This document shows positions 20,169-33,651 of a stretch of DNA of 64,000 nt, one piece after another (position 1 is the stretch's first letter; every line of letters begins with the position of its first letter). The notes beneath the pieces are model-generated. The model had not been told where the DNA came from. It saw only the letters and a program-made list of their open reading frames with translations, and did no database searches. This DNA comes from Asanoa ferruginea (GTDB lineage: Bacteria > Actinomycetota > Actinomycetes > Mycobacteriales > Micromonosporaceae), in NCBI RefSeq assembly GCF_003387075.1, contig NZ_QUMQ01000001.1, positions 7,936,001-8,000,000 of the forward strand. Direction: 5' to 3'. Made by a program: the position numbers and the translations under genes.

Positions 20169-20196
20169 GCATCCGGCCGGCCGCTCTAGAACGAAG
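20169..20196 (+). promoter_or_regulatory. predicted ECF-sigma promoter, copy 1 (DUF4397-sortase)
   Basis: GCATCC at 20169-20174, exactly 16 nt, then ACGAAG at 20191-20196, 38 nt before the ATG of the DUF4397 gene. The same hexamers at the same spacing occur before the sigma gene and the fasciclin gene. It resembles the mycobacterial SigK promoter (CCATCC/CCGAAT). Predicted from sequence. Confidence 0.72.
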
Positions 20197-20234
20197 TCCT
20201 TCTCGTCAGCCTGGCTATCGAGAGGAAACCCAGC

Positions 20235-21059
20235 ATGACCACAATCCTGCCGCGGCGGCTCGCCGCGGCTGCCGCCGCGACCGCGTTGGCCTTTGGCGCG
20301 CTCGCCGCCGGCACCGCCATGCCCGCCATGGCGGCGGCGGAATCGTCGGTATTCGTCGTGCACGGCATCCCGGGTCAGCCCGTCGATGTGTACGTCAACG
20401 GCGACAAGACCCTGGAGAACTTCCAGCCGGGCAAGGTCGCCGGTCCGCTGAAACTTCCGGCCGGTAGCTACGATCTCGCCCTCACCAAGCCGGGCGAGCC
20501 GATCGGCCAGGCGATCGTCAAGGCCGACGGCGCGAAGGTGCCCGGCGGCGCCAACATCAGCATCGTCGCTCACCTCACCGCCGACGGCGACCCGACGATC
20601 ACGCCGTTCGTCAACGACACGTCCAAGACCGGCGCCGGCAAGGCCCGGTTGATCGTCCGGCACACCGCCGCCGCACCAGCCGTCGACGTGCGCGCAGGCG
20701 GCGAACCGGTCTTCGAGAACCTGACCAACCCCAAGGAAGCCAAGGCCGACATCGCCGCCGGGACCGTCAAGTCCGACGTCGTCCTGGCAGGCAAATCCGA
20801 GCCGGTCATCGGCCCGGCCGACCTTGACCTCGCCGAAGGCACCGCGACAATCGTCTACGCCATCGGGTCAGCCGAACAGCAGACCCTGACCCTGGTCTCC
20901 CAGACCATCGACGGCCTGCACTCCGCACCCGGCGGCGTGCCCAGCGGCACCGGCGGCCTCGCAGACACCAGCACGCCCGCGTGGTGGTACATCGCCGTCG
21001 CGGCCGGTGTGCTGCTGCTCGCGGCCGGCGGCGTCCGCTACGCCACCGCGCGCAAATGA
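20235..21059 (+). CDS. secreted, membrane-anchored DUF4397 protein
   Basis: 274 aa. Signal peptide (MTTILPRRLAAAAAATALAF..., cleavage near AMAAAES), then two DUF4397 beta-sandwich-like modules (VFVVHGIPGQPVDVYVNGD, and ARLIVRHTAAAPAVDVRAGG). The C-terminus is LADTS at about 242-246, a hydrophobic helix and a basic ARK end, that is, sorting-signal architecture with a non-canonical motif. The sortase gene overlaps its stop codon, making it the likely substrate. Function unknown; a surface adhesin or structural protein is plausible. Under predicted promoter copy 1. Confidence 0.86.
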   Translation: MTTILPRRLAAAAAATALAFGALAAGTAMPAMAAAESSVFVVHGIPGQPVDVYVNGDKTLENFQPGKVAGPLKLPAGSYDLALTKPGEPIGQAIVKADGAKVPGGANISIVAHLTADGDPTITPFVNDTSKTGAGKARLIVRHTAAAPAVDVRAGGEPVFENLTNPKEAKADIAAGTVKSDVVLAGKSEPVIGPADLDLAEGTATIVYAIGSAEQQTLTLVSQTIDGLHSAPGGVPSGTGGLADTSTPAWWYIAVAAGVLLLAAGGVRYATARK

Positions 21060-21721
21060 CATACCGATCCCGGTGGGCGCCGGCGGCCATGGCCGCCGGC
21101 GCCGCACTACTCGTGGCAACCGCCGTCATCGCATGCGGCGCACAACCCGAACCCGACGAAGGTGCTGACACGGTGCGGTCCTTGTCGGCCACCCCGAGCG
21201 CGGCCCGGCCCACGACCGAGGTGCCGGTCAACGACGGTGCGTTACCTCGCCGCGACTCTCCGATCGCTCCGGTCAAGATGACCATCGAGGCGATCGGCGT
21301 GACCGCCACCGTCGTGCCGACCGGCGTGGACCCCCGCACCGGCGACTTCGACGTGCCACCGAGCGTCGACCGGGTCGGCTGGTATCGCTTCGGCCCCGGC
21401 CTGGACGCCTCAGCTGGGTCGACCGTGATCGCCGGCCACGTCGACAGTGCGAGCCAGGGCAGAGGCGCGTTCTTCCGCCTGCGCCAGCTCAGCGACGGCG
21501 ATCTGATCACCGTCACCGGAGACGACGGCAAACACCGGCGGTACACGGTCGTCGGGCGCGAGGAGTACCGCAAATCCCGAATCCCACTCGACCGCTATTT
21601 CGCCCGAGACGGAAAACCTCGCCTTTCCCTGATCACCTGCGGAGGTCCGTTCGACCAAGCAACCCGCCACTACCGCGACAACATCGTGGTAACCGCCGTG
21701 CCTACGTTGTCGGGCGCTTGA
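21056..21721 (+). CDS. class F sortase
   Basis: 221 aa transpeptidase that anchors or processes surface proteins. N-terminal membrane segment (AAMAAGAALLVATAVIACG, whose end also looks like a lipobox), then the sortase fold: the His in TVIAGHVDS, the catalytic Cys in LSLITCGGPFD and the Arg in RHYRDNIVV. LITCGG and the absence of extra domains fit class F of actinobacteria. ATG overlaps the TGA of the DUF4397 gene (ATGA), so the two are translationally coupled. Confidence 0.9.
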   Translation: MTYRSRWAPAAMAAGAALLVATAVIACGAQPEPDEGADTVRSLSATPSAARPTTEVPVNDGALPRRDSPIAPVKMTIEAIGVTATVVPTGVDPRTGDFDVPPSVDRVGWYRFGPGLDASAGSTVIAGHVDSASQGRGAFFRLRQLSDGDLITVTGDDGKHRRYTVVGREEYRKSRIPLDRYFARDGKPRLSLITCGGPFDQATRHYRDNIVVTAVPTLSGA

Positions 21722-21780
21722 GCCGACCCCCATGCCACCTGGCAGCTGTGGAGAGGTTTGGGTCATGTTGGCCGGCCGGC

Positions 21781-21808
21781 GCATCCATCCACGCCAGCGG
21801 CAGCGAAG
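21781..21808 (+). promoter_or_regulatory. predicted ECF-sigma promoter, copy 2 (sigma/anti-sigma)
   Basis: GCATCC at 21781-21786, 16 nt, GCGAAG at 21803-21808. It lies 153 nt before the sigma-factor ATG, leaving a long leader of about 145 nt. Same element and spacing as copies 1 and 3, implying that the sigma factor drives its own operon. Confidence 0.65.
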
Positions 21809-21961
21809 GACAAGTAGCTGACGTCGTTATGGCTGTCTTCGACTCGGCCAATGATCGCGGGGTACCCCAGACTCATTTGCCCGTTCATCGAAGCGGGACA
21901 GGCACTACGGTCGGGCTGCACAGCGAAATACAGGGAGGACCGCTGCTCGGGAGGGGGGTTG

Positions 21962-22540
21962 ATGATTTCCGACGACGAGCTCGCCGAACGCCTACGTGGG
22001 GGTGATGAGAAAGCCCTCCGGACGGCGTACGAACGTCACGGCTCCGCCGTGCTCTACCTGGCGCAGCGACTGCTGGGCAACCGGGCCGACGCCGAGGACG
22101 TCACGCAGCTGACGTTCGTGGCCGCGTGGAACGGGCGGGACACGTTCGACCCGCAGCGCGGCACTATCCTGGGCTGGCTGCTCGGAATCGGACGGCGTAA
22201 GGCGATCGACCGGATCCGGTCGACGGCGCGGGACGACCGGGTCGCCGAGACCGTGCGTGCCCAGGTCGCCCCAGCGGAGCAGCCGGAGCTTCCGGAGCGG
22301 GTCGTAGACCGGTTGGTCGTCGCCGACGAGCTGGGCCGGCTGCCCGCCGAGCAGCGGCGCACGTTGGAGCTGGCGTTCTTCGACGATCTGACTCATCCAC
22401 AGATAGCGGCCGTCACCGGGCTTCCGCTCGGCACGGTCAAGAGCCATATTCGCCGTGGGCTGGCAAACCTGCGACAGCGTTGGGAGGTGGACGGTGCAGC
22501 ATCTGGATCCCGATCGGCTGGTTCTACTCGCTCTCGCTGA
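21962..22540 (+). CDS. ECF RNA polymerase sigma factor (SigK-like)
   Basis: 192 aa. Region 2 (RHGSAVLYLAQRLLGNRADAEDVTQLTFVAAW, GWLLGIGRRKAIDRIR) and region 4 (LPAEQRRTLELAFFDDLTHPQIAAVTGLPLGTVKSHIRRGL) are complete. ATG 21962 follows a strong GAGGGGGG site; longer readings upstream lack sigma homology. The gene overlaps the RskA-like anti-sigma by 47 nt, the usual arrangement for a sigma held inactive by its own membrane anti-sigma. Overall resemblance is to the SigK group. Confidence 0.92.
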   Translation: MISDDELAERLRGGDEKALRTAYERHGSAVLYLAQRLLGNRADAEDVTQLTFVAAWNGRDTFDPQRGTILGWLLGIGRRKAIDRIRSTARDDRVAETVRAQVAPAEQPELPERVVDRLVVADELGRLPAEQRRTLELAFFDDLTHPQIAAVTGLPLGTVKSHIRRGLANLRQRWEVDGAASGSRSAGSTRSR

Positions 22541-23204
22541 GGAGAACGAGGGCCCCGGCGAGTTCGGCCACTTGGCCGAATGCGCCGTCTGCCGGCACGA
22601 GCTCGACGCGTTGCGCACCGTCGCCGAACTTGGCCGGGAGAGCCAGGACATGGGCGACCTGCCGCCACCGCCCGAGCGGATCTGGCAGCGCGTCGAGGCC
22701 GACATCGCAGGGAGTGCCACCGCGCCTTCGCCGGTCCGCGAGCTCGTGAAGCGGTCGGGTCGGGCACGGCCGCGCTGGCTGACGCCGGTGCTCGCCGCAG
22801 CCGCGGCCGCGGTCCTCGCGGTCGCCGGCACGGTGGCGGTCGACCGGTTCGTGCTGCGCGCGCCGGCCGAGCGGGTGACCGCCCGAGCGACGCTGTCGCC
22901 CCTGCCGACGGTGCCCGGATCGGCTGCCGGCACCGTCCGGGTGCTCTCCGACGGCGAGATGCGCATCGACGTGCGTAACCTGCCGCTGACCACCGGCTTC
23001 CACGAGGTGTGGCTCATCGACCCCGACGACCCCACCAGGATGACGGCGATCGGCAACCTTTCCGACAAGTCTTCCGCGCTGCTGACGCTGCCGCCCGGCA
23101 TCGACATGAACCGCTATCGACTGGTCGACATCAGCGACGAACCGCACGACGGCGACGCCGGGCACTCCGGCCACAGCCTGCTGCGCGGGACGCTGACATA
23201 TTAG
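22494..23204 (+). CDS. RskA-like membrane anti-sigma factor
   Basis: 236 aa. The N-terminal anti-sigma domain carries HLAECAVCRHEL (HxxxCxxC-type zinc site), one membrane helix at about residues 100-118 (WLTPVLAAAAAAVLAVAG) separates it from an extracytoplasmic RskA C-terminal domain (TGFHEVWLIDPDDP, YRLVDISDEPHDG, HSGHSLLRG). Such factors bind the sigma and release it after regulated proteolysis. GTG 22494 with GGGAGG just upstream, inside the sigma gene. Confidence 0.9.
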   Translation: MQHLDPDRLVLLALAEENEGPGEFGHLAECAVCRHELDALRTVAELGRESQDMGDLPPPPERIWQRVEADIAGSATAPSPVRELVKRSGRARPRWLTPVLAAAAAAVLAVAGTVAVDRFVLRAPAERVTARATLSPLPTVPGSAAGTVRVLSDGEMRIDVRNLPLTTGFHEVWLIDPDDPTRMTAIGNLSDKSSALLTLPPGIDMNRYRLVDISDEPHDGDAGHSGHSLLRGTLTY

Positions 23205-23206
23205 GT

Positions 23207-23234
23207 GCATCCATCTTGGGCGATGCGTCCGAAG
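23207..23234 (+). promoter_or_regulatory. predicted ECF-sigma promoter, copy 3 (fasciclin gene)
   Basis: GCATCC at 23207-23212, 16 nt, CCGAAG at 23229-23234, starting 2 nt after the anti-sigma stop and ending 54 nt before the fasciclin ATG. This copy is the closest of the three to the SigK -10 element. Confidence 0.75.
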
Positions 23235-23288
23235 TACGGGGTGGTGGCGTCAAAGCCATCACTCCGTACCCGGAAAGGACGCACGAAG

Positions 23289-23930
23289 ATGAAGTTCAAT
23301 CGAGCCACGGCCATCGCGGCCATCGCGATCGTCGCCTCCGCTCTGGTCGCCGCACCGGCCGACGCGCACGGCAAGACCAAGCCGCTGGGCACCCGGTCGC
23401 TGGCCGCGGTGCTCACCGCGGACAAGGGCGGTTTCGATCGCAACGGCAGCGACTACGACATCCTGACCGCCGCGGTGCTGGCCGTATTGGAGGCCAAACC
23501 GTCCAGCGCAGTCGGTGTGCTCGCCGACGGCAAGACGGCCCTGACCGCGTTCATCCCCAACGATCGGGCCTTCCAAACGCTGGTCGCCGACCTCCAGCAC
23601 ACCAGGCGCCTACCGAGCGAGAAGGCATCGTTTACGGCAGTGGCTGGCCTGGGCATCGACACCGTCGAGTCCGTGCTGCTCTACCACGTGGTGCCGGGCG
23701 TCACGATCAACCGTGCCGCAGCGCTGAAGGCCGACGGCGCGACTCTGACGACCGCCGCGGAGTCCTCCATCAAAGTCGACGTCTACGGCTACTACTGGCG
23801 CCGAATCAGGCTCGTTGACGCCGACCGCAGCGACCGTGACCCGCGCGTGGTCGCGTTCGACATCAACAAGGGCAACCGGCAGATCGCGCACAGCATCGAC
23901 CGGGTACTACGCCCCATCGACCTGCCCTGA
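23289..23930 (+). CDS. secreted fasciclin-domain (FAS1) protein
   Basis: 213 aa. Signal peptide MKFNRATAIAAIAIV... ending near PADAHG, followed by a single FAS1 domain: ALTAFIPNDRAFQTLV (H1 box), VLLYHVVPGVTI (YH motif) and the terminal DINKGNRQIAHSIDRVLRP (H2 box). FAS1 domains mediate adhesion or protein contacts at the cell surface. In mycobacteria the fasciclin proteins MPT70/MPT83 are SigK targets; here the gene follows a SigK/RskA-like pair under a matching promoter. ATG 23289. Confidence 0.9.
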   Translation: MKFNRATAIAAIAIVASALVAAPADAHGKTKPLGTRSLAAVLTADKGGFDRNGSDYDILTAAVLAVLEAKPSSAVGVLADGKTALTAFIPNDRAFQTLVADLQHTRRLPSEKASFTAVAGLGIDTVESVLLYHVVPGVTINRAAALKADGATLTTAAESSIKVDVYGYYWRRIRLVDADRSDRDPRVVAFDINKGNRQIAHSIDRVLRPIDLP

Positions 23931-23938
23931 CGTAAACC

Positions 23939-23965
23939 AGCGGGCGCGGCAATGCCGCGCCCGCT
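23939..23965 (+). terminator. terminator hairpin after the fasciclin gene
   Basis: Perfect 12-bp inverted repeat AGCGGGCGCGGC / GCCGCGCCCGCT with a 3-nt loop, starting 9 nt after the fasciclin stop. No T-tract, as is usual in high-GC actinobacteria. Marks the right end of the surface island. Confidence 0.82.
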
Positions 23966-24069
23966 GTCCCTGGCACGCTACCCACCCAAACCCTGCGTGA
24001 CCCCTCGCGGCGGCCGTCCTGGCCGCGTTCTCGGGCGCGGTGACTACGTTCAAGCGACGATTTCCGCTT

Positions 24070-24682
24070 CACGGGCCAACGTGGGCGCCTTCCTGCTCGT
24101 CGGCGGGTTCATGGGCTTCCAGTTCCTCGCCGTGCTCTACCTGCAAGAGCTGCGCGGCTGGTCGGAGATCGAGACCGGCCTCGCACTCGCGGTGATAGGC
24201 ATCGACGCGATCCTCGCCCCGACCCTGACGCCTCGACTCGTCGCCCGGTTCGGCATCCACCGGGTGATCGCGGTCGGGCTCGTGCTGGTCGCGCTCGCGT
24301 TCGCGTGGTTCCTACCGCTCGGCATGACCTGGAGCTTCCTGACGCTCCTGCCCGGGCTGCTGGCAATCGGGCTCGGGTTCGGGCTCGCGTACGGGCCGCT
24401 GACGATCGCCGCAACCGACGACGTCGAGCGGACGAGCAGGGGCTGGCGAGCGGCATCCTGACCACGTCGTTTCAATTCGGGTCGGCGCTGGGGCTGGCGG
24501 TGACGACGGCGGTGGTGGTCGCGGTGGCCGGCACTGACACGACCGCTCCGGAGGCAACGCTGGACAGCTATCGGACGGGCCTGCTGGTGCCGGTGACAGC
24601 ACTGGTGATCGCCAGCCTGGTCACCATCGCCGGCCTGGGGCGGCGGGGTGTGCACCGCGGCCAGGCCGTGCCCGCGAGGTGA
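24070..24682 (+). pseudogene. remnant of a DHA2-type MFS transporter
   Basis: Only the C-terminal half of a major-facilitator pump can be read. Helices of the second half (GAFLLVGGFMGFQFLAVLYL, TGLALAVIGIDAILAPTLTP) run in one frame to about 24425. The continuation (ADEQGLASGILTTSFQFG, ending at the stop at 24680-24682) is in another frame, so there is a frameshift at about 24423-24440. No start codon or N-terminal half is found upstream. A decayed, 5'-truncated gene. Confidence 0.82.
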
Positions 24683-29320: not shown

Positions 29321-29869
29321 ATGCCCGCAAGACCCAAGATCGATCGCGCCGCGATCCTCGACGTCACGCTGGAGATCGCCGACCGCGACGGCCTCGAGGC
29401 CGTCACCATGCGGGCGGTGGCCGATCGGCTCGGCGTGACGCCGATGGCGCTCTACCGCCACGTCGGCGACAAGCAGGGGCTGCTCGACGGCCTGGTCGAA
29501 CGCCTGCTCGGCGAGCAGCCGGACCCGGACGCGGAATCGTCGTGGGAGGAGCAACTGCACCGGCGGGCCGCCGGCCTGCGGGAGACCGCGCGGCGCCACC
29601 CGAACGTCTTCGGGCTGCTGCTCGCCCGCCGGGCCGCCACGCCAGAAGCGCTGCGGGCCCGCGCGGGGGTCTACCGTGCCTTCGCCGACGCCGGCCTGCC
29701 CGAAGACCTGATTCCACGCGTCGAGCGACTGCTTTCCACGTTCGTGCTCGGCTTCGCCGCTTCCGAGGCCGGCGGCAGGTTCACCGACCGGGAGGCCGCC
29801 GACGCTGACTTCGCCTACGCGGAGGAGGTTCTCGCCGTCCTCATCCCCCGCCTCGCCGCGCAGGAATGA
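29321..29869 (+). CDS. TetR-family repressor of the ABC operon
   Basis: 182 aa. N-terminal HTH: AILDVTLEIADRDGLEAVTM and RAVADRLGVTPMALYRHVGDKQGLLDGL are classic TetR; a ligand-binding helical domain (TetR_C type) follows. ATG 29321. Divergent from the ABC ATPase with an inverted-repeat operator between. A truncated, frameshifted copy of its 3' part lies at 33481-33651. Confidence 0.9.
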   Translation: MPARPKIDRAAILDVTLEIADRDGLEAVTMRAVADRLGVTPMALYRHVGDKQGLLDGLVERLLGEQPDPDAESSWEEQLHRRAAGLRETARRHPNVFGLLLARRAATPEALRARAGVYRAFADAGLPEDLIPRVERLLSTFVLGFAASEAGGRFTDREAADADFAYAEEVLAVLIPRLAAQE

Positions 29870-33480: not shown

Positions 33481-33651
33481 CACGCCAGAGGCGCTGCGGG
33501 CCCGCGCGGGGTCTACCGTGCCTTCGCCGACGCCGGCCTGCCCGAAGACCTGTTTCCACGCGTCGAGCGACTGCTTTCCACGTTCGTCCTCGGCTTCGCC
33601 TACGCGGAGGTTCTCGCCATGCTCATCCCCCGCCTCGCCGCGCCGTCCTGA
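33481..33651 (+). pseudogene. decayed copy of the TetR gene (3' part)
   Basis: Matches 29638-29869, the 3' part of the intact TetR gene, in the same orientation. It carries a one-base loss in a G run (GGGG for GGGGG near 33510) that breaks the frame, and lacks 57 nt that in the intact gene lie between two CTTCGCC repeats. The DNA-binding half, the whole ATPase gene and the operator are absent. Confidence 0.86.

Follow-up and report, generated by a model that had tools for sequence, protein, structure and literature searches.

Three transcription units of a small gene island in Asanoa ferruginea are preceded by the same two-block motif, which raises the question of what reads it. The island lies in a stretch of 64,000 nt (hereafter the window; positions 7,936,001-8,000,000 of a genome of 9,071,909 bases in one contig, all of which was searched) and encodes a DUF4397 surface protein with a sortase, an extracytoplasmic function (ECF) sigma factor with a membrane anti-sigma factor, and a secreted fasciclin-domain protein. 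We conclude that the three sites very probably serve as promoters for the ECF sigma factor whose gene lies between them. The initial annotation had assigned the sites, including the one before the sigma gene itself, to this sigma factor; their conservation, the sites of displaced target genes and the joint loss of sites and sigma factor support the assignment, and the reading itself is deduced from sequence. All three sites were recovered at the exact coordinates first reported, on the plus strand and with identical spacing, and the 16 nt originally counted before NCGAAG correspond to a gap of 17 nt when counted to CGAAG (GCATCC-N17-CGAAG, where N is any nucleotide):

20169..20196, + strand: probable promoter of the DUF4397-sortase unit, exact match to GCATCC-N17-CGAAG
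21781..21808, + strand: probable promoter of the sigma/anti-sigma operon, exact match to GCATCC-N17-CGAAG
23207..23234, + strand: probable promoter of the fasciclin gene, exact match to GCATCC-N17-CGAAG

Allowing up to two mismatches, the window contains 22 matches, namely the three exact ones and 19 with two mismatches; none in the 64 kb has exactly one, in agreement with the earlier statement that the window holds no further match. The 22 loose matches fall below the shuffled mean of 31; therefore, only the exact ones are informative. Since the motif had been picked after inspection, its significance was assessed post hoc over all dyads. The motif is the sole 6+5-base dyad (gap 10-25) present in each of the three intergenic regions, none of 3000 dinucleotide shuffles of these regions shared any such dyad, and one of 500 shuffles shared any 5+4-base dyad, which bears out the original view that a chance origin is unlikely. 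Across the genome, the search that the initial annotation had proposed returned nine exact matches, as compared with one for the reversed control pattern.

Conservation was analyzed with sigma relatives from 150 genomes of the family and 80 named loci, from which 124 loci with distinct sigma proteins were kept; family counts exclude the window and refer to the 330 nt before each gene, in the coding direction. Exact GCATCC-N17-CGAA precedes 28/29 fasciclin, 28/66 DUF4397 and 56/95 sigma genes. With at most one mismatch, the site precedes 29/29 (28 exact and one with a single mismatch), 58/66 and 77/95 genes, respectively, against shuffle rates of 1.2%, 2.1% and 1.5%; the motif is thus conserved in the orthologous islands, where it had been suggested to look for it. 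As negative controls, the regions upstream of the sortase and anti-sigma genes have the exact site in 1/66 and 0/95 cases. Matches in the opposite direction (45 for DUF4397 and 30 for sigma) arise because divergent neighbours share one upstream region. Pairs of GCATCC and CGAA stand at a gap of 17 in 28/28 fasciclin, 28/33 DUF4397 and 56/67 sigma cases, and none of 1440 letter-permuted dyads approaches this, the best others occurring in 9, 19 and 10 regions (means 0.04-0.08). In distant actinobacteria (Microbacteriaceae, Cellulomonas, Pseudonocardia and metagenome bins), the site is found with 0-1 mismatch before 19/21 DUF4397, 2/2 fasciclin and 1/27 sigma genes. The usual order there is DUF4397-sortase-sigma-anti-sigma on one strand, which fits a single operon and would explain why the site stands at DUF4397 and rarely at sigma.

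Target genes located away from the sigma gene also carry the site. From the family matches, we examined 30/31 for fasciclin and 30/53 for DUF4397. The exact site precedes 10/10 fasciclin genes near the sigma gene and 17/17 far from it (four at 1.5-4.3 Mb; the other 13 in draft genomes, on contigs different from that of the sigma gene); for DUF4397, it precedes 13/26 genes near the sigma gene (22/26 with one mismatch allowed) and 3/3 displaced genes. A sigma orthologue is present in 50/150 family genomes, among them 47/48 of those with DUF4397 and 24/27 of those with this fasciclin. Two genomes, G028 and G136 (loci L251, L264 and L236), have the fasciclin gene, and G028 also DUF4397, with neither an orthologous sigma nor the motif. 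When these two and a third genome (G115) were rechecked with all candidates scored, the best sigma matches were 34-36% identical. In genomes lacking the orthologous sigma, the fasciclin site is exact in 1/3 and the DUF4397 site in 0/1. These few site losses where the sigma factor is absent are no independent proof, yet they are consistent with a sigma-dependent promoter. The island would thus be an autoregulated ECF regulon, with a conserved site before its own operon and its targets that is usually lost together with the sigma factor.

The remaining features of the island are as follows:

20235..21059, + strand: DUF4397 surface protein, 274 amino acids, with signal peptide, two beta-sandwich domains, flexible linker and C-terminal membrane helix (PF14344, 105 bits)
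20934..20957, + strand: GVPSGTGG codons, a conserved segment before the membrane helix and candidate sortase signal (orthologue pattern)
21056..21721, + strand: sortase, class F-like (PF04203, 69.5 bits; NF033748, 122.9 bits, cut-off 166)
21962..22540, + strand: ECF sigma factor, 192 amino acids, no cysteine (PF04542, PF08281)
22494..23204, + strand: membrane anti-sigma factor with HLDPDRLVLLA start, HxxxCxxC, membrane helix and RskA_C outer domain (PF10099)
23234..23269, + strand: 15-bp inverted repeat at the presumed fasciclin transcript start (stem and pair counts)
23289..23930, + strand: secreted fasciclin-domain protein, 213 amino acids, divergent member (PF02469)

The DUF4397 stop codon overlaps the sortase start (ATGA), and the anti-sigma gene begins inside the sigma gene. 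The sigma factor contains regions 2 and 4 and no region 3, as an ECF sigma factor does (PF04542, 68.9 bits; PF08281, 51.8 bits; TIGR02937, 79.3 bits, cut-off 42.9). The anti-sigma factor is of the RskA type (PF10099, 51.2 bits, cut-off 29.4), and the fasciclin protein belongs to its family (PF02469, 40 bits, cut-off 22), its AlphaFold model being too poor for use in confirming the fold (predicted local distance difference test score, pLDDT, 41.5). A sequence search of the PDB gave no match for the sortase, the fasciclin or the DUF4397 protein.

The initial annotation had also noted a likeness of the sites to the mycobacterial SigK promoter, whose consensus is CCATCC/CCGAAT. The likeness is real, but the island sigma factor is a relative and not SigK itself, because a true SigK, with CCATCC-type sites of its own, is encoded elsewhere in the genome. 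Against the SigK model NF007228 of NCBIfam, the window sigma scores 117 bits (cut-off 226); the sole gene of the genome above this cut-off scores 278.5 bits, has an RskA partner and lies at 1.51 Mb. Two regions (L224, G000:C1:1507500-1518500, and L202, G000:C1:7331500-7336500) present this parallel SigK/RskA circuit with its CCATCC-type sites. A tree of 32 rows, in which the long-branched L079 is a sequence fragment, joins the resident SigK to that of M. tuberculosis (98/93); all island sigmas, including that of the window, are separated from both SigKs, the other own paralogues and SigL by a 100/100 branch. Cysteines 133 and 183 of SigK have no counterpart in the window sigma, which is cysteine-free like 111/124 of its orthologues. 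The SigK-type pattern CCATCC-N16-CGAAT occurs four times in the genome (control, 0): once upstream of an MPT83-like fasciclin lipoprotein gene, ~36 nt from its likely start, once near sigK beside a CCATCC-N17-CGAAG site, and twice without a clear target. The gene behind the sites near sigK is presumably DUF4331-like.

The island therefore resembles SigK-RskA of M. tuberculosis (mpt70, mpt83) in its ECF sigma factor with an RskA_C-type membrane anti-sigma factor, its fasciclin targets and its CATCC/CGAA-type sites, and differs from it in the missing cysteine pair, in the first base of the -35 element (G, not C) and in targets that include DUF4397 and the sortase. It is predicted to work like SigK-RskA, yet is not SigK. 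By eye and by pattern, the start of the window anti-sigma, VQHLDPDRLVLLALAEE, resembles HLDPDQLALLA, the helix-1 consensus of the AS19-2 anti-sigma factors as given in PMC7406223, and a relaxed form of this motif is present in 102/123 anti-sigma orthologues. That source assigns M. tuberculosis RskA to AS19-1, regulating ECF19, whereas M. tuberculosis SigK is placed in ECF18 in PMC7509140. ECF18 members have the cysteine pair in 94% of cases and ECF19 members in 56% (PMC7509140); thus, its absence alone does not exclude ECF19. Judged by the helix-1 resemblance, the island switch probably belongs to ECF19/AS19-2.

Several points weigh against the sites being read by the island sigma factor. The true SigK encoded in this genome uses a site much like these; G115, a draft genome of 380 contigs, retains the fasciclin site with no sigma orthologue detected; 18/95 sigma and 8/66 DUF4397 upstream regions of the family have at least two mismatches at best; and the CGAA half is variable, with CGTA in many DUF4397 sites and mostly GGAA in those of the distant relatives. 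Moreover, the sequences are related, so the counts are of non-independent events. The first point leads to the alternative that the true SigK is the main reader of the three sites, with the island sigma acting elsewhere, as SigK, its RskA and SigK-type sites sharing CATCC and CGAA are all present in this genome. We consider it improbable: GCATCC-N17-CG[AT]A precedes 56/66 DUF4397, 64/95 sigma and 28/29 fasciclin genes, whereas CCATCC-N16 or N17 precedes 0/66, 2/95 and 0/29, and the sites follow the presence of the island sigma, one of them standing before the island sigma gene itself.

Still less credit goes to the motif being the operator of another DNA-binding regulator and no promoter. Two blocks at a fixed gap could suit a dimeric regulator, for which nothing direct speaks, and an inverted repeat is also found at the fasciclin start site; however, the motif is directional and non-palindromic, has almost always one gap, lies at a promoter-like distance from the start codon (54-55 nt for fasciclin; 38 nt for DUF4397 in the window), and tracks the sigma gene, not a transcription-factor gene. 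That the three sites match by coincidence, or through a recent duplication of a single upstream region, has a negligible probability. The six further copies in the genome are about as many as the control pattern yields in related genomes, but the shuffles described above and the conservation across genera and orders led us to reject chance, and recent duplication was rejected on the differing spacers and flanks of the three sites.

With the island sigma factor as the reader, the locus is best understood as a switch that responds to an envelope signal, reinforces itself by positive feedback and yields surface and secreted proteins. The membrane anti-sigma factor, produced from the overlapping gene, would hold the sigma factor inactive until an extracellular signal releases it. 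Together with the freed sigma factor, RNA polymerase would then transcribe from GCATCC (-35) and CGAA(G) (-10), 17 nt apart, raising expression of the sigma operon itself in a positive feedback and turning on the DUF4397 protein and the dedicated sortase that may anchor it, as well as the secreted fasciclin protein. Of these steps, we infer the physical reading by the sigma factor, where transcription starts, how the sigma factor is released, and the anchoring of DUF4397 by the sortase.

The regulon had been described as local. It is small, but not in every case local, as the fasciclin gene or the DUF4397-sortase pair is placed elsewhere in many relatives. Four of the six exact matches outside the island lie inside predicted open reading frames (gene calls around genome-wide matches were made with a codon-usage script); of the other two, one (L005) has its end 9 nt upstream of the start predicted for a sugar-binding-protein gene and one (L004) lies between a LacI-type gene and a sugar-binding-protein gene. 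A search for extra regulon members found none; most of the six are located within predicted genes. The L004 match has a counterpart (L179) in Asanoa ishikariensis with GCATCC-N17-CGAAG between the same two types of gene; its conservation says little because the surrounding DNA is ~90% identical. Six genomes of the genus contain 30 motif and 23 control matches, and 11 of the 30 precede island units or displaced copies. A stricter pattern in the 150 genomes gave 47 matches, 29 at island-type units and 18 elsewhere (eight in the 50 sigma-bearing and ten in the 100 sigma-less genomes; one, L306, is within a coding frame), against 29 for the control. The motif is thus no commoner elsewhere than its control (19 vs 23 in the genus; 18 vs 29 in the family), a comparison that bears on random occurrence inside genes, which the initial annotation had named as a concern. 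Since the non-target matches do not exceed the control, nothing at this stringency points to a larger shared regulon in the 150 genomes, although weaker sites would escape. At promoter position, GCATCC-N17-CGAA with 0-1 mismatch is found neither before the other three fasciclin genes of the genome, one of which has a SigK-type site instead, nor before its second DUF4397-sortase pair. In the latter (L204, G000:C1:8792000-8797000), a DUF4397 gene is followed by a sortase-like gene, and the 5 kb read holds no ECF gene.

Directly 3' of the fasciclin -10 block lies the 15-bp inverted repeat (23234-23269), which is apparently new. In 32 aligned fasciclin leaders, 94.3% of cells pair, and double changes occur at five pairs (10 cells; 1.9 in shuffles, 0/500 as high). 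The 32 were chosen from 51 leaders for alignability, which favours structure; left out were two repeats of used leaders, one of the same genus without a clear stem (L040), two with a wrongly set start, and Micromonospora-type leaders with other stems. Folding falls below a z-score of -2 in 27/28 fasciclin, 3/54 DUF4397 and 0/62 sigma leaders; the repeat, conserved among fasciclin leaders with some compensating changes, is absent from those of DUF4397 and sigma. Counting against an RNA reading, the pairing slid by -1 also gives five pairs with double changes (eight cells), although just 32% of cells then pair. Since the repeat leaves the ribosome-binding site uncovered, a stabilising 5' hairpin and a start-site operator are both possible, and a transcription start 6-8 nt past CGAAG would confine the outer base pairs of the repeat to the DNA. 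A search of Rfam gave no match.

The model of the DUF4397 protein is good (pLDDT 76; linker 232-251 of low confidence, helix 250-271) and best matches the extracellular domains of PepT1/PepT2 in the PDB (E ~1e-6, template modelling score by target at most 0.69), a general beta-sandwich likeness. The protein has the membrane helix and basic end of a classical sortase substrate and no LPXTG. Across 90 DUF4397 orthologues, LPxTG occurs in none and the looser [LNSP][PA]xT[GA] in 17, whereas 83 have a GVPSGxGG-like segment in the linker (a pattern written after viewing the sequences). This conserved segment in place of LPXTG is apparently new and, because the sortase gene is coupled to the DUF4397 gene, is a candidate non-canonical sorting signal. 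The sortase has NF033748 (class F) as its best NCBIfam match and scores below that cut-off. According to PMC13251363, Actinoplanes missouriensis has four class F sortases (SrtF1-4) with unknown roles, whose quadruple mutant had no phenotype; the neighbours of two of these sortases, with signal peptide, membrane helix, basic tail and no known pentapeptide, were suggested as substrates. This layout matches the DUF4397-sortase pair; the window sortase differs in scoring under the class F cut-off.

Beyond the promoter assignment, we tentatively suggest a programme dedicated to surface display and distinct from SigK, in which class F-like sortases might anchor DUF4397 via GVPSGxGG, the conserved 5' hairpin might add control or lifetime to the fasciclin mRNA, and the ECF19/AS19-2 switch might differ from the resident SigK mainly in the opening base of its -35 element. 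An ECF sigma group known mostly from classification would gain a defined promoter along with a short list of targets, both derived from sequence and open to testing in harmless soil bacteria, and class F-like sortases, described as of unknown role in PMC13251363, would be linked with a single regulator and a single probable substrate. Regulated expression and an unusual sorting signal are a possible reason for the lack of effect of the deletions and for the failure of substrate searches to find the partner. The two SigK-like circuits in one genome make promoter insulation directly testable. Among the open-licence papers listed in our searches, none mentions DUF4397 and no paper joining fasciclin, sigma factor and Actinoplanes was found; we do not claim that the regulon is unpublished.

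Elsewhere in the window, 23952-24682 holds a pseudogene-like remnant of a major facilitator superfamily transporter in two overlapping frames, whose profile match covers the C-terminal part only (209-327 of 347). Identical 28-base stretches at 29678-29705 and 33520-33547, 3.8 kb apart, hint at duplicated coding sequence.

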